DNA from: Burkholderia sp. BCC0506
Lineage (GTDB): Bacteria > Pseudomonadota > Gammaproteobacteria > Burkholderiales > Burkholderiaceae
DNA: 64,000 nt
Reading direction: 5' to 3'
Assembly: GCF_902833145.1 (NCBI RefSeq)
Contig: NZ_CADFEN010000011.1
Span: 186,001 to 250,000, forward strand
Part shown: positions 1,207 through 64,000 of the stretch, piece after piece
Position numbering within the stretch: the first letter of the stretch is position 1
Layout: each line of letters begins with the position of its first letter
Position numbers and translations under genes: made by a program
The notes under the pieces: generated by a model
Told to the model about the DNA's origin: nothing
What the model saw: the letters and a program-made list of their open reading frames with translations, nothing else
Databases searched by the model: none

Positions 1207-2361
1207 ATGGCAAGGTTAAATACTCGCGCAGCGCCGGCTGCCGGGAAAGGTCTCGTCGTCGGCGTGTCGCTGTTCGTGCGCGGCGTAGGCCAGTCGCTGT
1301 GGGAAAACGGCATTTTCCAGAACTGCCTGCTGCTGATCCTGCTGCTGCGCCAGTCGCCGCTCGTCGCGGATGCCGTGATGGTGAACGGCGGGGAACAGGT
1401 CGCCGATCCGCAGATGATGCTCGGCGAGTGGAACGTGCCGCTGCTGTCGATGGACGAAGCGCTCGAGCGCTGCGACGTGCTGATCGAAATGAGCGCGCAG
1501 TTCGGCGCGGACTACCTGCGCGCGTTCCGCGAGCGCGGCGGCAAGGTCGTCACGATGCGGGTCGGCAACGACTACGTGATCGACATCGAACGCGCGATGT
1601 TCGACAAGCCGTCGGGCTTCCTGTTCTCCGGTGCGCCGTACGACGCGGTGTGGACGATTCCCGAGTTCGAGCGCTCGTGCCTGCACTACTACCAGACGGG
1701 CCTGCGCGCGCCGGTCACGATCGTCCCGCACATCTGGCATCCGATGCTGTTCGACAAGGCGCGCGCGACGCTCGGCGACGGTTTGTCGTTCGGCTATCAG
1801 CCCGGCAAGCCGCGCTGGCGCGTGACGATGTTCGAGCCGAACATCTGCATGGTGAAGACGAGCATCATTCCGATGCTCGTGACCGAGGAAGCGTATCGCG
1901 CGAAGCCCGGCTTCCTCGAGTTCGTGCGCGTATGCAACACGCTGCACCTGAAGGAACACGCGACGTTCGTTCACTTCGCGAAGAGCCTCGACATCGTGAA
2001 CCACGGGATCACGACGTTCGAAAGCCGCTATGCGGTGTACGAGTTCATGGCCGCGTACGGCGACGCGGTGGTGTCGCACACGTGGGAGAACGCGCAGAAC
2101 TACCTGTATTACGAGCTGCTGTACGGCGACTATCCGCTGATCCACAACTCGCCGTTCCTCGGCAAGGCCGGGTATTTCTATCCGGACTTCGACTGCCAGG
2201 CCGGCGGCCGCGCGCTGCTGAAGGCGTTTGCCGAGCACGACGCGAACCTCGACGCATACCGCGAGCAGTCGAAGCACGTGCTCAGCTCGGTCAGCATCTA
2301 CAACCCCGAGAACGTCGCGGCCTATACGGACGCGATCGCCGCCCTCTATCGCGACGCGTGA
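1207..2361 (+). CDS. DUF2827 family protein
   Basis: 384 aa. Start taken at the ATG of MARLNTR, since the longer in-frame version would overlap the preceding EAL gene. It resembles the DUF2827 family, cytoplasmic proteins that in Burkholderia usually sit beside glycosyltransferases in surface-polysaccharide or glycosylation loci. The fold looks glycosyltransferase-like (alternating beta/alpha, an ENAQNYLYYE segment followed by a short LIHNSP motif near the C terminus), but no catalytic residue can be named. No signal peptide. The next gene starts 25 bases after its stop, so the two may be cotranscribed. Codon use is typical of the host, in contrast to the gene upstream. Function unknown. Confidence 0.8.
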   Translation: MARLNTRAAPAAGKGLVVGVSLFVRGVGQSLWENGIFQNCLLLILLLRQSPLVADAVMVNGGEQVADPQMMLGEWNVPLLSMDEALERCDVLIEMSAQFGADYLRAFRERGGKVVTMRVGNDYVIDIERAMFDKPSGFLFSGAPYDAVWTIPEFERSCLHYYQTGLRAPVTIVPHIWHPMLFDKARATLGDGLSFGYQPGKPRWRVTMFEPNICMVKTSIIPMLVTEEAYRAKPGFLEFVRVCNTLHLKEHATFVHFAKSLDIVNHGITTFESRYAVYEFMAAYGDAVVSHTWENAQNYLYYELLYGDYPLIHNSPFLGKAGYFYPDFDCQAGGRALLKAFAEHDANLDAYREQSKHVLSSVSIYNPENVAAYTDAIAALYRDA

Positions 2362-2386
2362 CGCGCCGCCCTTTCCGGACCCAACA

Positions 2387-2854
2387 ATGAACGCACACTC
2401 GCCCCTGACCCGCGCAAAATGGCTGATCGGCTGTGCCGCCGCATCGATCGCGATCGGCGCGCACGCGCAAGCAGCCGGCGAATCGGCCGACACGCTGCTG
2501 CGCGACTCCGATGCCGTATTCAAGCAGCTCGACGCCGGCCAGTACGGCGCGGTGTGGACCGACGCCGCCGCGTTCGTGAAGGCGCGCATCAAGCAGGACC
2601 AGTTCGCGGCCGACATGCAGCATGCGCGCCAGTCTGTCGGCGCGGTCAGCCATCGCGGTTGGGCCCAAGTCACGCGCATCCGCTACACGAATGCGTCAAC
2701 GATACCCGACGGACTCTACGCGAACGTCGACTTCGCCACGACGCTGAAGAACGGGTCGACCGTGTTCGAGAAGATGAGCTTCCGTCTCGAAGACGACGGA
2801 AGCTGGCGTTTGACCGGCTATGTGCCACGCCAAGTGCAGGATCTTGCCCAATAA
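2387..2854 (+). CDS. DUF4019-like secreted protein
   Basis: 155 aa with a clear Sec signal peptide (positive N terminus, hydrophobic residues about 10-25, AHAQA cleavage region). The mature part (DAVFKQLDAGQYGAVW ... SFRLEDDGSWRLTGY) has the layout of the DUF4019 family, small periplasmic domains related to the NTF2-like and DUF3828/4019 fold, with no known activity. The start is the ATG 25 bases after the DUF2827 stop; the longer frame is shadow sequence. It is probably the last gene of a transcript with DUF2827. Role unknown; a periplasmic binding or accessory role is only a guess. Confidence 0.75.
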   Translation: MNAHSPLTRAKWLIGCAAASIAIGAHAQAAGESADTLLRDSDAVFKQLDAGQYGAVWTDAAAFVKARIKQDQFAADMQHARQSVGAVSHRGWAQVTRIRYTNASTIPDGLYANVDFATTLKNGSTVFEKMSFRLEDDGSWRLTGYVPRQVQDLAQ

Positions 2855-3157
2855 TTGTAGGGCAAGTTCGGCTGAAGATCGTCCGCCGGTACGACGTCGG
2901 GTGCGTACGGAGCTGCTGGATCGAGTTACCCGATGGCGCTCTGACGCTGGGACAGGGGGACTCCGACGTGGGACCGCTCGCGATAACCGATCCTGCCGAT
3001 CGAAGCGCATCTTGTCGCGCGGGTGGCGACGTGATGGCACGCGCGCTGCTTATGCGCTATGCGGGCGCCCAAACTTATAGCGGTGCGGGCAGTTTGAGAA
3101 AGATGAGTAATGTGCGGCACACGACAAGATGGGCAGGCGAATGCGCTGAGGACCTGA
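2855..3157. other. Intergenic stretch, no gene supported
   Basis: About 300 bases following the DUF4019 gene. Reading frames here are short, rich in arginine and serine, and lack ribosome-binding sites. Composition begins to drift away from the host average. No tRNA, transposase fragment or clear repeat was seen. Confidence 0.5.
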
Positions 3158-7772: not shown

Positions 7773-8492
7773 ATGCAACCGACTGAATCGAATCGACGCA
7801 GCCTTCCCGCGATCCTGCTCGTCGCGGCGTCGCGCGGCCTCGGGCTGGCGATGGCGGAGACCTTCCTGAACAAGGGCTGGCAGGTGACGGGCACCGTGCG
7901 CGAAGGATCCGGGCGCACGAAGCTGCACGACCTGGCCGACCGGTTCGACGGCCGGCTCGAGATCGAAACGCTCGACATCTGCGAGCCCGCGCAACTGGCC
8001 GTGCTGCGCGAGCGCCTGTCGGGCCGGCGCTTCGACATGCTGTTCGTGAATGCGGGCACGACCAACGACCCGAACGAAACGATCGGCGAAGTGACGACCG
8101 ACGAATTCGTGCGCGTGATGATCACGAATGCGCTGGCGCCGATGCGCGTGATCGAGACGCTGCAGGATCTCGTGCCCGACGACGGGCTGATCGGCGCGAT
8201 GTCGTCGGGGCAGGGCAGCGTCGCGAACAACGTCAGCGGGATGCGCGAGGTGTATCGCGGCAGCAAGGCCGCGCTGAACCAGTTCATGCGCAGCTTCGCC
8301 GCGCGTCAGGCCGATACGCGCCGCGCGATGGCGCTGATGGCCCCGGGCTGGGTCCGCACCGAACTCGGCGGGCCCGACGCACGCCTGACCATCGACGAAA
8401 GCGTGCCGAGCCTCGTCGACGTGCTGCTGGCGAAGCGGGCGCGGCCCGGGCTCGAATACCTCGACTATCTGGGGCGGACGGTGCCGTGGTAG
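7773..8492 (+). CDS. Short-chain dehydrogenase/reductase
   Basis: 239 aa. Nucleotide-binding loop AASRGLGLAMA near residue 20, the DI acidic pair after beta-4, an NAG motif at about residue 92, and the catalytic Tyr-x3-Lys as YRGSK near residue 167 with an upstream serine in MSSGQGS. Short SDR of the 'classical' type, cytosolic, NAD(P)H-dependent; substrate unknown. Start is the ATG after AACAACC; the longer frame lacks support. Divergent from the LysR gene, which presumably controls it. Confidence 0.9.
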   Translation: MQPTESNRRSLPAILLVAASRGLGLAMAETFLNKGWQVTGTVREGSGRTKLHDLADRFDGRLEIETLDICEPAQLAVLRERLSGRRFDMLFVNAGTTNDPNETIGEVTTDEFVRVMITNALAPMRVIETLQDLVPDDGLIGAMSSGQGSVANNVSGMREVYRGSKAALNQFMRSFAARQADTRRAMALMAPGWVRTELGGPDARLTIDESVPSLVDVLLAKRARPGLEYLDYLGRTVPW

Positions 8493-8733
8493 CCGGGGTG
8501 GCGGCGCAAGTGCGCGGCGGCCGGCCAGGTTCCGGCTCGCCGTGAACGCGCTGCGCGAATCGGCCTGCTGTCGGCGGCCCGTTCGCGGCACGGCAAAGGC
8601 CGTGCCGATTCAATACAATGCGACGACGCGTCAGTGATACGGTGCCGCCTCATCGCGTTTGAATCCATCCGGTTCGTAGCGGATCGTGTGCGTTCCCGTC
8701 GTGACGGCCTCGTGTCGAACATGGAGCGCATGT

Positions 8734-9069
8734 ATGAACGAACCCTATCTGCAAGTGATCGCGCATTATTTCGCGAAGCCCGGCAACGGCGACCGCGTGG
8801 TCGAACTGCTGGCCGAACTCGCGCCGGCCACGCGGGCCGAGCCGAAGAACCTCGACTACGCGTATTTCCGGTCGCCGGAGCACCCCGACCACATCGTGAT
8901 CCTCGAGCGTTACAGCGATGCCGACGGCCTCGACGCGCATCGGGAAACGCCGCATTTCCAGCGGATCGGTGTCGGCGAGATCATTCCGCTGCTCGATCGT
9001 CGAGAAGTGATCCGCTACATGGTGCAGCCGGACACCGGCACGGCGACGCCACCGGGAGGCGCCCGATGA
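8734..9069 (+). CDS. Antibiotic biosynthesis monooxygenase (ABM/YgiN-like) domain protein
   Basis: 111 aa, a single dimeric alpha+beta barrel ABM domain (QVIAHYFAKPGNGDRVVELL ... VILERYSDADGLDAHRETPHF). Such proteins oxidise quinols or aromatic rings without a cofactor, or serve as small oxygenase or degradation accessories. The stop overlaps the start of the next gene (ATGA), so it is translationally coupled to the iron-dependent alcohol dehydrogenase. Together they suggest a small aromatic or quinone conversion operon. Start chosen at MNEPYLQV, with GGAGCG upstream. Confidence 0.85.
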   Translation: MNEPYLQVIAHYFAKPGNGDRVVELLAELAPATRAEPKNLDYAYFRSPEHPDHIVILERYSDADGLDAHRETPHFQRIGVGEIIPLLDRREVIRYMVQPDTGTATPPGGAR

Positions 9070-58793: not shown

Positions 58794-59036
58794 ATGGATA
58801 CTGCAAAGCTCTTCAAGCATGGCGGCTCGCAGGCTGTCCGGTTGCCGAAAGATTTCCGCTTCGATACGGCCGAGGTCCGCATCCGTCGCCACGGGGCGGC
58901 CGTCATTCTCGAGCCGATGCCGCAAGACTGGGCCTGGCTGGCACCGCTGATCGGCCCGGTCGACGCCGATTTCGAGGCTGCCGCGACCACGCAGCCGGCC
59001 GCTCAGGAGCGCTCGGGTCTGGACGTGTTCGAATGA
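58794..59036 (+). CDS. vapB: VapB-type antitoxin (AbrB/SpoVT fold)
   Basis: 80 aa; GAGGGCGG upstream of the ATG. Swapped-hairpin DNA-binding N terminus DTAKLFKHGGSQAVRLPKDFRF, then VRIRRHGAAVILEPM, and a flexible C-terminal tail (DADFEAAATTQ ... LDVFE) that should bind and block the toxin. Starts four bases before the end overlap with vapC (ATGA), so both are coupled. Confidence 0.88.
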   Translation: MDTAKLFKHGGSQAVRLPKDFRFDTAEVRIRRHGAAVILEPMPQDWAWLAPLIGPVDADFEAAATTQPAAQERSGLDVFE

Positions 59037-59440
59037 AGTTCCTGCTGGATACCAACGCGGTGATCGCCATTCTCAAAGGCGAGCCGGCGATGCTGGCCCG
59101 GTTGCATGCCTGGCAGCCGGCCGATTTCGGGATCCCTGCGATCGTCGCGCATGAGCTTTGTTACGGCGCGTACAAGAGCCAGCGAGCGGCCGCGAACGTC
59201 GCGCGGGTCGAGGCGCTGCAATTCGAGGTCGTATCGTTCGACACCGAGGATGCCCGGCATGCGGGCGAAATCCGGGCGCACCTGATCGCGGCCGGCACGC
59301 CGATCGGCCCTTGCGACGCATTGATCGCAGGGCAGGCGCGTGCCCGGCAGCTGGTGCTCGTCACGCACGACGTCCGCGAATTCGAGCGTGTGCCGGGGTT
59401 GCAATTCGAAGACTGGCTTGCCGAACCGAGCGCGGGCTGA
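59033..59440 (+). CDS. vapC: VapC-type PIN-domain toxin ribonuclease
   Basis: 135 aa. PIN acidic residues: Asp in LLDTNAVI (residue 6), Glu in VAHELCYGAY, Asp in GPCDALIAGQA and Asp in VTHDVREF. Mg-dependent RNase that stops translation, often by cutting tRNA or rRNA. Start overlaps the antitoxin stop. Size and layout are ordinary for VapC. Confidence 0.9.
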   Translation: MKFLLDTNAVIAILKGEPAMLARLHAWQPADFGIPAIVAHELCYGAYKSQRAAANVARVEALQFEVVSFDTEDARHAGEIRAHLIAAGTPIGPCDALIAGQARARQLVLVTHDVREFERVPGLQFEDWLAEPSAG

Positions 59441-59840: not shown

Positions 59841-62228
59841 ATGACCATCCGTCATCGCATTACGCTGCTAGTCGTCCTGACGTTCTTCGCGCTGTCCGCG
59901 ATCGGCATCTATGCCGTGTACCAGACGCGCAAGAGCGCGTCCGAGGTGCGTCAGGTCACCCAGGGAATCGTGCCGAGCGCGCTGGCGTCGGCCGATCTCG
60001 TCGCCGATGTGAAGAACATCCAGATCGCGACGATGACGCTCGTCTACGCACCCGACGCGAACACCGCCGCACAGGCGCGCGACGAACTGAAGGCGAAGCA
60101 GGCCGCACTGCGCGCCGCACTCGACGCGCAGGCGAAGTCGGCGGTCGGCCAGGCGCAGGTCGGGCTCGTCTCGCAGGCGAAGGAGAGCGCCGCGAACTAT
60201 TTCGCGGCCATCGACGACACCGTGAAGATGAAGGCGGACGGCAAGACCGAGATGGCGCAGGCCTACCTGTTCGCGAATGTCGCGCAGTATCGCGACGAAC
60301 TCGAAAGCATCGTCGACACGCTGCGCGTCGAGAAGAACCGCCAGAAGGACGACGCGATCGGCGCGCTGAACGGGATGCTCGCGACCACGGCGACCGCGAT
60401 CGCGGGCGTCGCCGGCACGGTGATCGTGCTGCTGACCGCGCTCGGCCTCGTGCTGTATCGCCAGATCACGCGCCCGCTGATCGGGATGCAGACGGCGATG
60501 AGCGAGATCGCGACGAGCCAGGATTTCACGCGACGCGTGCCGGTGGGCCGGATGGACGAAATCGGCCATTCGATCGTCGCGTTCAACGGGATGATCGAGA
60601 AGATCCAGGAGAACGCCGCGCAACTGAAGCAGAAGACGGCCGACATCCAGGCGATGCTGCAGAACATGCAGCAGGGCATCCTGACCGTCGTCGAGGGCGG
60701 CGTCGTGCATGCGGAGTACTCGGCGTACCTCGAAACCATCTTCGAGACGAACGACATCGCCGGCCGCGACCTGATGGCGCTCGTGTTCGACGATTCGGCG
60801 ATCGGCGCCGATGCGCGCTCGCAGGTCGATGCGGCCGTGCACGCGTGCCTCGGCGAGGACAGCATGAACTTCGAATTCAACGAACACCTGCTCGTCAACG
60901 AAGTCGCGAAGCGGATGCCGGACGGTCGCGAGAAATGGCTCGACCTGAGCTGGTCGGCGATCACCGACGAGACCGATACGGTCGTGCGCCTGATGCTGTG
61001 CGTGCGCGACGTGACCGAGATCCGCGAGCTGACCGCGCAGGCCGGCGAACAGCAGCGGCGCCTCGAGATGATCGGCGAGATCCTGTCGATCAGCCAGGAC
61101 AAGTTCCACGATTTCGTGCACAGCGCGAAGGGTTTCCTCAGCGAGAACGAGCGGATGATCCGCCAGCACGAGCGCGCCGATCACTCGATCGTCGCGGCGC
61201 TGTTCCGCAACATGCACACGATCAAGGGCAATGCGCGCACGTACAGCCTCCAGCATCTGACGAACATCGTCCACGAAGCGGAGCAGGCGTACGAATCGCT
61301 GCGCTGCGCGGACAGCGGCCCCGAGTGGAACCGCGACGCGCTGATGGAGGATCTGGCGCGCGTACGCGAAGCCGTCGACCACTACGCGACGATCAACGCG
61401 GTGACGCTCGGCCGCAGCGGCGAGCCGGCGCCGGATGGCGCCGATTTCCTGATGGTCGAGCGTGCGCACATCAGCGAGAGCCTGCGCGTGCTCGACGGCG
61501 CCGATCCGGCGAACGCGTCCGACTGGCACGCGGCGCGCGATGCCGTGCGGCGCATGCTGAGCCAGCTCGGCACGCAAGGCATCGGCGACGTGCTCGGCGG
61601 CGTGATCGAGTCGCTGCCGTCGCTCGCGGCCGAGCTCGGCAAGCCGGCGCCCGTCGTGCATATCGACAGCCACGGCCAGCGCGTGCGCAGCGAGATCGTC
61701 GCGACGCTGAAGAACGTGTTCATGCACCTGCTGCGCAATGCGATCGACCACGGGATCGAATCGTCCGACGAGCGGCGCGCGTCCGGCAAGGCCGCGTCCG
61801 GCACGATCGACATCGCGGTCGGCGTCGGCGGCGGCGAGCTGTGGTTCGTGCTCGGCGACGACGGCCGCGGCCTCGCGCTCGACCGGATTCGCGGCATCGC
61901 GCGCGAGCGCGGCTGGATCGATGCCGACGGCGAAGCGGCGCTGTCCGACGAGGAGGTCGCCGAGCTGATCTTCCGGCCCGGCTTCTCGACCGCGCAGACG
62001 GTGACCGAAGTATCGGGGCGCGGCGTCGGCATGGACGCGGTGCGCAATTTCCTGAAGCGCGACGGCGGCGATATCGCGCTGCGTTTCACCGACGATCGCG
62101 TCGGGGCGCCGTATCGCACGTTCGAGACGATCGTGTCGCTGCCGGCACGCTTCGCGGCGGATGGTGCCGCGCATGGCGCGGGGCCCGCGCAGCGGGCGCG
62201 CGTCGCGGATATCGGCGCGGCGGAGTGA
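59841..62228 (+). CDS. Membrane sensor kinase-like protein: 4HB-HAMP-PAS-Hpt-HATPase
   Basis: 795 aa. TM1 8-28, periplasmic four-helix bundle 29-182, TM2 183-206, HAMP 207-259, PAS-like region 265-395, Hpt domain 410-525 with phospho-His H459 in FRNMHTIKGNARTY, then HATPase_c 600-770 with N box LLRNAIDHGIE (N633), GDDGRGL (D673) and GRGVGMDAV (726-733). The order after HAMP is CheA-like, but the P2 and CheW-like P5 domains are missing and the sensor part is fused on. Should phosphorylate H459 in response to a periplasmic or membrane signal. Confidence 0.85.
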   Translation: MTIRHRITLLVVLTFFALSAIGIYAVYQTRKSASEVRQVTQGIVPSALASADLVADVKNIQIATMTLVYAPDANTAAQARDELKAKQAALRAALDAQAKSAVGQAQVGLVSQAKESAANYFAAIDDTVKMKADGKTEMAQAYLFANVAQYRDELESIVDTLRVEKNRQKDDAIGALNGMLATTATAIAGVAGTVIVLLTALGLVLYRQITRPLIGMQTAMSEIATSQDFTRRVPVGRMDEIGHSIVAFNGMIEKIQENAAQLKQKTADIQAMLQNMQQGILTVVEGGVVHAEYSAYLETIFETNDIAGRDLMALVFDDSAIGADARSQVDAAVHACLGEDSMNFEFNEHLLVNEVAKRMPDGREKWLDLSWSAITDETDTVVRLMLCVRDVTEIRELTAQAGEQQRRLEMIGEILSISQDKFHDFVHSAKGFLSENERMIRQHERADHSIVAALFRNMHTIKGNARTYSLQHLTNIVHEAEQAYESLRCADSGPEWNRDALMEDLARVREAVDHYATINAVTLGRSGEPAPDGADFLMVERAHISESLRVLDGADPANASDWHAARDAVRRMLSQLGTQGIGDVLGGVIESLPSLAAELGKPAPVVHIDSHGQRVRSEIVATLKNVFMHLLRNAIDHGIESSDERRASGKAASGTIDIAVGVGGGELWFVLGDDGRGLALDRIRGIARERGWIDADGEAALSDEEVAELIFRPGFSTAQTVTEVSGRGVGMDAVRNFLKRDGGDIALRFTDDRVGAPYRTFETIVSLPARFAADGAAHGAGPAQRARVADIGAAE

Positions 62229-62232
62229 CGGC

Positions 62233-62979
62233 GTGATCGTGCAGGCTTGGATGATGCAGATGGCCGCCGCGCTGGCGGGCGGCGCGATCGTCGCGGTGGC
62301 GGCGGCGCTCGTGTTTCGTATGATGCGCATGCGGCTCGTCGCGTCGATGGCGCGCGACGCGCGGGCGTTGCGCGATGCGCTCCGCGCGGCCGAGGGGCGG
62401 GCGCAAGAGGCGGCGTCGGCGCATGCGGAAGCGGCCGACGCATGGGCGCAACGCGAGGCGCAGCTCGAGGAGACGCTGACACGCGAAGCTTCCGCGAACG
62501 GCGCGCAGCGCGATGCGTTGCAGGCGCTGTCGGCAGACCGTGCGGCGCTCGCGCAGCACGCGATGAAGATCGCCGACGAAGCCGCGCGCCTGCGCGGGCT
62601 CGCCGGCACGTTCGAGCGCTGGCACGAGCAGATGATCTCGCTGACCACGCAGAACCAGGACATGCGGACGAAGAACCAGGAACTGTCGGCGATCGTCGCG
62701 CACGTGTCGATCGTGTCGCTGAACGCGTCGATCGAGGCCGCGCGCGCGGGCGCGGCCGGGCGCGGCTTCTCGATCGTCGCGAGCGAGGTGCGCGGGCTGG
62801 CCGCGCGCTCGCAGCAACTGTCGAACAGCTATCGCGACAGCCTGAACCGCAACGATCTCGTGACGGCCGCGACGTTCCAGGACATCCAGGCCGGCGGCAA
62901 GATGATCACGGCCGCGCTCGCGACCGTCGAGACGCTGGCCGGGCAACTGCACGCGCGGATCGAAGGAGAGGCCGCGTGA
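62233..62979 (+). CDS. Membrane-anchored protein with the tip of a chemoreceptor signalling domain
   Basis: 248 aa from a GTG (GGAG seven bases upstream). One N-terminal helix (9-29) anchors it, then a long coiled coil (38-125, Ala/Glu/Arg-rich), then residues 155-191 resemble the MCP hairpin tip: VSIVSLNASIEAARAGAAGRGFSIVASEVRGLAARS, close to the receptor core that contacts CheA/CheW. Methylation helices, HAMP and sensor domain are absent. Four bases behind the kinase-like gene, so part of the same operon. Confidence 0.8.
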   Translation: MIVQAWMMQMAAALAGGAIVAVAAALVFRMMRMRLVASMARDARALRDALRAAEGRAQEAASAHAEAADAWAQREAQLEETLTREASANGAQRDALQALSADRAALAQHAMKIADEAARLRGLAGTFERWHEQMISLTTQNQDMRTKNQELSAIVAHVSIVSLNASIEAARAGAAGRGFSIVASEVRGLAARSQQLSNSYRDSLNRNDLVTAATFQDIQAGGKMITAALATVETLAGQLHARIEGEAA

Positions 62980-63557
62980 TCAGTGCGCAGGCGAGGGCCG
63001 GTTTCGAACGGATATTCTTCGATGCGGCGCGCACGCGGCTCGCCGCCGGCGGCGCGTGCGACATCCGGCCGGCCGCCGGTCACGAACCCGATGCGCCCGA
63101 GCGGGCGCACGCGCAGTCGCGATGGAAGCCGAAGGTGCCCGAGCATGTCGTGGCGCTGACGATCTCCGCGCTGCATTTCCGCCTGCTGCTCGCGCTGCGC
63201 TTCAGCGACGACGACGCGACACGCCGCCATTTCGCCGGCGCGACGGCAGGCACGGGCAGCCAGCGGCCGCTGACCGAAGCGTTCATGGAAGTGGCGAACC
63301 TGTGTTGCGGCGCGATCAACCAGGCGCTGACCGTGCCGTTTCCCGATCTGGGGATGTCGACGCCTTACCTGCTGAGCGGCGCGAGCATCGACTACATGCA
63401 CGCGCTCGCCCCCGATTACGTGGCCGCGTACGACCTGACGCTCGACGGCGACGTGCGGGTCGGCGCGACGCTGTGCGTGTGCGCGAACGCGCCGGTCGAT
63501 TTCCACGTGCCGGAAACGGCCACGGTGGAAGCCGGCGGCGAGCTCGAACTGTTCTGA
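62976..63557 (+). CDS. CheC/CheX-like protein, putative chemotaxis phosphatase
   Basis: 193 aa from a GTG overlapping the previous stop by four bases (GAAGGAG upstream). The region TEAFMEVANLCCGAINQAL followed by STPYLL fits the CheC/CheX/FliY pattern Glu-x2-Asn-x22-Pro: E105, N108 and P130, one residue shorter. Those residues hydrolyse CheY phosphate in CheX. The overall fold is probable, the activity unproven. No signal or membrane segment. Its presence next to a pseudo-receiver is notable. Confidence 0.65.
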   Translation: MISAQARAGFERIFFDAARTRLAAGGACDIRPAAGHEPDAPERAHAQSRWKPKVPEHVVALTISALHFRLLLALRFSDDDATRRHFAGATAGTGSQRPLTEAFMEVANLCCGAINQALTVPFPDLGMSTPYLLSGASIDYMHALAPDYVAAYDLTLDGDVRVGATLCVCANAPVDFHVPETATVEAGGELELF

Positions 63558-63579
63558 CCGACCATCAGGAATCCATCAG

Positions 63580-64000
63580 ATGACCGAAGACCAACCCGTC
63601 AGCAAGGTGCTCGTGCTCGACGACAGCCGCGTGCATGCCGATGCGATCAAGCGTTTCTGCGACGCGCACAACCTGGTCGGCCTGACCGTGCGGCGCGGCC
63701 GGCTGCTGAAGGTGCTGCGCTCGAACATCGATCTCGGCGCGATCCTGCTCGCCGAGGATTACGGCGGCTCGCCGGCCGAGAGCGCGATCATCGCGACGCA
63801 GATCGACGCGTTGCGCCCGGAGCTGCCGATCATCCTGCGCCGCGAATCGCTCGCGTCGCGCGACGGGCTGCCCGATGCGCTCGCGCGGGTCGCGTGCGCG
63901 GCCTACGTCGCCGACGACATGACGCCGCTCGAGCGCGCGATCGACGAATACCTGTTCGGCCGCGACTACCCGAACGCGCTGGTGCGCGGCATCTCGGAGA
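63580..64000 (+). CDS. Receiver-like protein, lacks phospho-acceptor Asp (truncated by window end)
   Basis: At least 140 aa; the start has CATCAGGA before it. Reads as a CheY-type fold (VSKVLVLDDSRVHADAIKRF, acidic pair D14-D15), but the beta-3 position that should hold the phospho-Asp is Ala (ILLAEDYGG), Thr87 of CheY corresponds to Arg and Lys109 to Asp. Thus probably not phosphorylated. The rest of the gene lies outside the window and may carry an output domain. Fourth gene of the operon, 22 bases after the CheX-like gene. Confidence 0.75.
   Translation, partial: MTEDQPVSKVLVLDDSRVHADAIKRFCDAHNLVGLTVRRGRLLKVLRSNIDLGAILLAEDYGGSPAESAIIATQIDALRPELPIILRRESLASRDGLPDALARVACAAYVADDMTPLERAIDEYLFGRDYPNALVRGISE

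Follow-up and report, generated by a model that had tools for sequence, protein, structure and literature searches.

The stretch of DNA analysed here, called the window throughout, comprises 64,000 nucleotides of Burkholderia sp. BCC0506 (RefSeq assembly GCF_902833145.1, contig NZ_CADFEN010000011.1, positions 186,001 to 250,000 of the forward strand), a bacterium with a genome of 7.29 Mb. Among plasmid records, megablast gives matches at 86-95% identity to four replicons of 2.4-3.5 Mb, from Burkholderia arboris, cenocepacia, multivorans and stagnalis, which suggests a relative of the B. cepacia complex. At its 3' end lies an operon of five chemosensory-type genes, all on the + strand, encoding a sensor kinase (KIN), a receptor-tip protein (TIP), two CheX-type proteins (CHX and RCX) and a canonical CheY (CHY). 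KIN (795 aa), delimited by its open reading frame (ORF) and Pfam, occupies 59841-62228. TIP, read as an ORF, runs from a GTG at 62233 (an ATG at 62251 is the alternative) to 62979 and overlaps CHX by four bases. CHX (62976-63557, 193 aa) ends in the hexapeptide GELELF, which with the stop codon occupies 63537-63557. RCX (319 aa) begins at 63580; its first 140 codons lie in the window (63580-64000), and in window-equivalent numbering it ends at 64539. CHY, a complete CheY of 121 aa, is the one gene wholly beyond the window end, at 64569-64934 in the same numbering.

How tightly are these genes packed, and what surrounds them? From KIN to CHY the intergenic distances are 4, -4, 22 and 29 bases. 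Several of the starts are preceded by purine runs that can be read as Shine-Dalgarno-like. An earlier note, made from the letters of the window alone, had described a four-gene chemotaxis-derived operon packed with overlaps or gaps of under 25 bases and with no CheW, CheR or CheB adjacent. The operon and the packing of its first four genes stand; the gene number does not, since reading downstream adds CHY as a fifth. The extension that the note had proposed completes RCX and leads into CHY, and brings in no cheW, cheR or cheA of an ordinary array. The flanks, read on past the window end, contain no adjoining cheW, cheR or cheB; what follows 3' of CHY are metabolic-looking ORFs, enoyl-CoA-hydratase-like and then alanine-racemase-like (by reading only). 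Because cheW, cheR and cheB are not adjacent and KIN is without the P5 domain of CheA, an ordinary chemotaxis operon is ruled out. That the window copy is a decaying remnant is also ruled out, because its five genes are intact in this genome and are conserved in others. Directly 5' of the operon, at 58794-59440, two small overlapping genes have the look of a VapBC-type toxin-antitoxin pair (AbrB-like and PIN-like, by reading only).

Sensor kinase and receptor tip

Motif counts here and below refer to 23 of 48 loci (22 for KIN, since locus L073 is without it), the near-identical Burkholderia loci, the decayed locus L045 and the orphan RCX loci L056 and L075 having been left out.

To what extent is KIN a CheA? 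From its N-terminus Pfam recognises a four-helix-bundle (4HB) sensor (aa 1-161, 4HB_MCP_1, 5.5e-11), a HAMP domain (aa 205-257, 1.5e-8), a weak PAS-like region (aa 268-391, 17.4 bits, below the cut-off of 22.6), an Hpt domain (aa 447-509, with His 459; 1.7e-6) and a CheA-type HATPase (aa 622-747, HATPase_c, 1.9e-9). The best match of the ATPase part is to CheA models (NCBIfam, E 2e-36). KIN has the P1 (Hpt) domain of CheA with its phospho-acceptor His and the CheA-type ATPase, P4; the motifs FRxMHT[IL]KGNxRT, DDG[RK]GL, SGRGVGM and HxxRNxxDHG[IL]E all occur in 22/22 kinases. The C-terminal CheW-like P5 is missing: Pfam found no CheW match in the scanned KIN-type kinases. After the SGRGVGM box there remain 50-87 residues in 22/22 kinases, against 190 in the host CheA, and there is therefore no room for a CheW-type domain. 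The order 4HB-HAMP-PAS-Hpt-HATPase without CheW, as the note had it, is thus what we find, the PAS falling below its cut-off. The sensor part varies between kinases (4HB-HAMP, HAMP-GAF or none recognised) while the core of PAS-like region, Hpt and ATPase is constant.

TIP consists of an N-terminal hydrophobic segment, a coiled coil and the signalling tip of a methyl-accepting chemotaxis protein (MCP; Pfam MCPsignal, 6.1e-15), with GRGF at the tip in 23/23. A 17-residue stretch with a mean hydropathy of at least 2 is present in 17/23 TIPs as first called; in five of the other six a hydrophobic stretch lies at or just ahead of the called start, with possible in-frame starts before it. The Pfam scan found no ligand-binding domain or HAMP, the MCPsignal match covers only positions 22-136 of 172, the C-terminal arm is short and the long methylatable hairpin of receptors is absent. 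The note's description of a membrane protein with only a receptor tip, not a normal receptor, agrees with this. Might TIP instead be a CheZ-like phosphatase? After the tip, FQ[DQ][ILM]QA is conserved in 23/23 TIPs (62233-62979 in the window), recalling FQDLTGQ of the host CheZ. This candidate was rejected: the Gln stands in a different register from that of the host CheZ, and Pfam gives no CheZ family match. In locus L074 TIP ends DVDFELDF, and a receptor-like protein near the module there (1861-3072) ends DSFEMF, resembling the GELELF tail.

CheX-type proteins, their shared tail and CHY

By sequence CHX is hard to recognise, its Pfam CheX match lying below the cut-off (E 0.019). Its predicted structure (mean predicted local distance difference test score, pLDDT, 78.2) is more telling: the 12 best matches in the PDB are CheX, CheX-like or putative chemotaxis chains, with target template-modelling scores (TM-scores) of 0.58-0.69; next in rank come FliM and CheC, which belong to the same fold group. 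On this model CHX has the CheX fold, as the note's CheC/CheX-like assignment of the third protein had anticipated. ExxN is the catalytic motif of CheX. In CHX it is E105..N108, invariant in 15 aligned rows and present in the 23 rows listed in another comparison.

The C-terminal half of RCX is a CheX domain (Pfam, 5.4e-9) with an ELTN motif, and matches the solved CheC/CheX-like structure 3iic at E 2.3e-6. ExxN is found in 22/23 RCX (that of L073 read by eye), the exception being L051, which a stop codon interrupts. Because of the CheX fold and the intact ExxN, CHX and RCX are probably CheX-type phosphatases. The N-terminus of RCX gives no Pfam Response_reg match, yet is predicted to fold as a receiver (pLDDT 78-90 over residues 11-120). 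For the whole RCX model the mean pLDDT is 69.5, and the best Foldseek matches are RssB receiver proteins and the CheX-like 3h2d, with modest TM-scores. At the position of the acceptor Asp, aligned by eye, 10 of 13 RCX sequences, the window copy included, have Glu, one has Tyr and one Thr; the lone-standing relative L056 has Asp. The note had taken the fourth gene for an Asp-less receiver. The receiver fold and the lost Asp stand, but the protein is not a receiver only, a second CheX domain being attached.

Is this pseudo-receiver needed? In a genus of the same family (g5), 27 of 28 RCX matches begin at model position 93 or later, the pseudo-receiver having been lost. Two of its loci, L126 (RCX at 8111-8752) and L127 (RCX at 7866-8510), have all five genes in order; their RCX, of 213-214 aa, is a short stub with FLILDDN joined directly to the CheX part. 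In these two loci the pseudo-receiver is dispensable to the module, which argues for a modulatory role. In L129 (6952-8040), of the same genus, RCX is frameshifted between its receiver and CheX parts. RCX relatives with tails ending GELEFF occur at L056 (8270-9241) and L075 (8897-9871), where the other module genes are not beside them.

What CHX and RCX share most plainly is their C-terminus. The terminal pattern is G[EAM][LM]E[LFM]F for 23/23 CHX and G[ED]L[ED][LF]F for 22/23 RCX, and GELELF itself is the most frequent form of each (16/23 and 17/23); in the exceptional RCX, again L051, the piece downstream of the interrupting stop ends GELDLF. Within the window genome, each of the nine residues that close RCX has its match at the end of CHX once one gap is allowed, although BLAST aligns no part of the two proteins at better than E 0.42. 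A strict ELELF-stop DNA pattern gave 11 matches in nine genomes, every one at the end of CHX or RCX (those at CHX of G900 and G902 assigned by position only). Its reversed-pattern control gave 0 matches, and genome G480 no match to the strict pattern. The C-terminus of CheZ binds CheY, and that of the host CheZ reads DDLLASLGF. The GELELF tail resembles the CheZ C-terminus in place and character, and we therefore propose that it may dock on CHY.

CHY is a standard CheY by Pfam, with the acidic pair, phospho-Asp, Thr and Lys of the active site; [VI]VDDS, DVNMP and LTTE are present in 23/23. MKxRGKAxGxKGWIVKPF is likewise found in 23/23, and the host CheY differs there. The alpha4-beta5 segment is nearly invariant, and over 16 residues its net charge is +2 to +4 in six module CHY against +1 in the host CheY. 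The best-scoring solved relatives are two entries for CheY4 of V. cholerae, 4h60 and 4hnr, a protein that is reported not to have bound FliM in a pull-down (PMC3774744). The usual mode of FliM binding seems unlikely for CHY. FliM occurs in 13/13 module genomes tested, against a background of 167/250 in the order, a co-occurrence that is weak because the module genomes are related; the link to flagella that these counts give is suggestive and weak. A search for CHY among phages returned 107 records, at <60% identity.

Distribution and simpler relatives

How widespread is the module? With the window's own genome included in the counts, RCX homologs occur in 96 of 299 genomes of the family, 8/250 of the order and 5/398 of the phylum. 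In the class, strong matches (1e-110 or better) are confined to 4 of 369 genomes; eight further genomes give weak matches (E 4e-6 to 6e-5) that cover only part of the model. A search with the KIN-specific segment, apparently over the same draw of 369 genomes, gave strong matches (1e-106 or better) in the same four. Within the window's genus, 38 of the 41 genomes among those listed by kinship have RCX; one match is frameshifted and one partial. A search for related loci recovered 33, of which 30 are from Burkholderia, one from Trinickia, one from Caballeronia and one from a beta-proteobacterial metagenome-assembled genome. The check on the same neighbourhood in other genomes that the note had suggested thus turned out positive: the five-gene set is found again in families scattered through the order and the class. 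The usual order is KIN-TIP-CHX-RCX-CHY, with KIN-RCX-CHY-TIP-CHX in L051 and L053 and TIP-CHX-RCX-CHY-KIN in L054. In the module loci the lowest identity to the window proteins is 26% for CHX, about 36% for TIP, 39% for KIN and RCX and 64% for CHY. This conservation in distant homologs excludes chance. In Caballeronia sordidicola (L045, 6724-8071) a decayed module has an intact RCX and fragments of CHX and CHY; KIN and TIP were not found in the stretch.

From what might such a set have been built? Five genomes of the class have KIN matches of lower strength (2e-25 to 3e-16), at loci L119-L122 and L125; one of these genomes, G486, also has the module. Each cluster has a sensor fused to Hpt and ATPase, then a CheY, then at least one CheX (one half of the doubled L119 is without CheX), the sensor being PilJ-like above cut-off only in L125. 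The kinases are related to KIN at E 2.2e-42 to 5.3e-61. These trios share with the module the sensor-Hpt-ATPase kinase, the CheY and the CheX side by side. They differ in that no TIP or RCX was detected in any of the five loci, in the absence of the tail (0/6 trio CheX) and in a CheY of a different subtype (MKxRGKAxGxKGW in 0/6). ExxN, as GEVxN or GEIxN, is present in 5/6 trio CheX, the second CheX of L119 being without the Asn. These comparisons suggest that the five-gene set is an elaborated form of such a trio. Beside the trio of L122 (10613-11857) stands a receiver fused to a Ser/Thr protein kinase, a possible output of the simpler system, and a plasmid search with a trio CheX returned two distant records.

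A proposed mechanism and its alternatives

How might the five proteins work together? Taken as a whole, the operon is explained best, and with somewhat better than even confidence, as a self-contained, CheW-less phosphorylation module derived from chemosensory parts. In our proposal KIN would use the membrane and PAS-like domains that it carries to sense a signal, and would autophosphorylate the Hpt His by its CheA-type ATPase. It would then phosphorylate CHY, as its domain content and the operon suggest, and CHX and RCX would dephosphorylate CHY-P, as their fold and intact ExxN suggest. The GELELF-type tail would be a peptide for docking, with CHY, in which the alpha4-beta5 segment is more basic than in the host CheY, as its most likely partner. 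Together the pseudo-receiver and TIP would tune the balance of phosphorylation and dephosphorylation. The receiver domain in RCX, being phosphorylation-dead, may be a regulatory decoy that binds the Hpt of KIN or gates the attached CheX, accepting no phosphate. The part of TIP is the least certain: it may be a receptor-derived, membrane-anchored coupling piece that joins kinase and phosphatases, or that links them to an ordinary receptor array. CHY-P would act by binding another protein, which may belong to the motile/sessile axis; the usual contact with FliM is probably not the route.

Several observations weigh against this proposal. The host has an ordinary CheW and CheA, so that CheW could act in trans, and TIP keeps the receptor tip consensus with which CheW and CheA normally make contact. 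The universal FliM of the tested module genomes fits a flagellar output as well as another. A profile comparison of CHX with RCX links their ExxN regions (26 columns, probability 43%), and common CheX descent may explain the shared tail, which could in any case bind a partner other than CHY. Beyond the receiver part, both the model of RCX and its fold matches are weak, the CheX half being of low confidence. The pseudo-receiver has gone from all but one of the g5 matches, yet both loci examined there keep the module. In L056 and L075, relatives of RCX stand without the four partner genes. Finally, the cluster stretch examined in G486 (L073) contains no KIN; outside the module cluster that genome has two large KIN-type kinases with 4HB-HAMP-GAF sensors.

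Other explanations, none of them exclusive of the proposed module, deserve weighing. The GELELF tail might be a receptor-style tether, or dock on KIN or TIP rather than CHY. The receptor tail NWETF recruits CheR and CheB, a receptor-like protein of the host ends DWETF, and the L074 endings of TIP and its receptor-like neighbour point the same way; the tail, however, has no Trp, sits on the CheX proteins (23/23 CHX, 22/23 RCX) and is accompanied by no methylation genes in the window cluster, and we think a tether of either kind unlikely. It is more doubtful still that CHX and RCX have lost phosphatase function and are scaffolds, CHY decaying alone or through KIN: CHX is indeed far from the CheX profile, but the intact homologs examined retain ExxN, even with CHX diverged to 26% identity.

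Could the module be a side branch of an established pathway? TIP might join the host array by its tip, with KIN, CHX and RCX shifting a common pool of phospho-CheY and so biasing the flagella. The invariant GRGF and the presence of CheW (13/13) and FliM in every module genome tested would suit such an accessory branch. Yet KIN is without the P5/CheW domain that joins arrays, TIP has a short C-terminal arm and no ligand domain was found in it, the alpha4 segment of CHY is unlike that of the host CheY, and FliM is common in the order anyway; we regard this as improbable. A little less so, though still on the unlikely side, is a branch in cyclic di-GMP signalling in which CHY-P binds and controls a diguanylate cyclase whose gene lies elsewhere, with the CheX proteins lifting that control. 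Its precedent is the PdcABC system of B. thailandensis: there phosphorylated PdcC is reported to bind the PAS domain of the diguanylate cyclase PdcA, inhibiting it, and the CheC/CheX-domain protein PdcB to dephosphorylate PdcC (PMC9899790). That the best solved relative of CHY is reported not to bind FliM fits this too (PMC3774744). Against it, the link to a cyclase is hypothetical, and a crude scan of ORFs of at least 150 aa found 0 with a GGDEF motif across 50 loci of the module or related to it. A search for PdcABC in two stretches of a B. cenocepacia replicon, their positions guessed, gave no GGDEF motif and no match to CHX or RCX.

How, then, does the proposed module compare with known systems? 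With the canonical MCP-CheW-CheA-CheY pathway and its CheZ, CheC or CheX it shares the CheA-type Hpt and ATPase, the MCP tip, the CheY and the CheX-type protein. It differs in having no CheW or P5, no CheR or CheB beside it, a sensor fused to the kinase, a TIP without sensor, two CheX proteins with a common tail and a pseudo-receiver. The CheX of Thermotoga, Borrelia, Vibrio and Shewanella (1xko, 3hzh, 6vpw, 3h2d) agree with CHX in predicted fold, with RCX in sequence relationship and with both in ExxN; they differ from the module proteins, in which RCX is fused to an Asp-less receiver, the GELELF-type tails are present and CHX has diverged too far for the Pfam cut-off. A survey of CheA defines P1, P3, P4 and P5 as the core that every CheA in it possesses (PMC10782961). 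KIN has the P1 (Hpt) and P4 (ATPase) of these kinases and no P5; as the survey treats P5 as universal, kinases like KIN fall outside it.

PdcABC is the most useful precedent. It shares with the module a CheC/CheX-domain phosphatase that acts on a response regulator. It differs in having a diguanylate cyclase, whereas the module operon has no GGDEF gene, and the available descriptions name no kinase, receptor tip or pseudo-receiver (PMC9899790, PMC12421958). The open-access literature, a scope that leaves subscription journals largely outside, gave no recognised description of the five-gene set, in keeping with the earlier note's remark that no described system with this order was known. Its verdict of an unfamiliar design needs qualifying: the kinase-CheY-CheX trios and PdcABC are related simpler systems, which show that the module's logic is not isolated.

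Beyond the proposed module lies a broader idea, which we put forward tentatively and hold to be possible rather than probable. The family may form a separate class freed from CheW and the hexagonal array. In it the receptor tip would have become a local scaffold for a CheA-type kinase with its own fused sensor, and a short C-terminal peptide carried by both phosphatases would gather the complex around a single CheY. Such a class would be intermediate between two-component systems and array chemosensing, in steps from trio to five-gene set to set without pseudo-receiver.

Why should this matter? RCX is a marker of the module, widespread in the window's genus and yet without a recognised paper in the literature just described. 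The common GELELF tail offers an easy point at which to test the module, and genus g5, where the pseudo-receiver has been lost, is a natural experiment on the role of that domain. CheA activity is normally understood only within receptor-CheW arrays; a sensor-bearing CheA-type kinase beside an orphan receptor tip would let one ask which parts of chemosensory control need the array.

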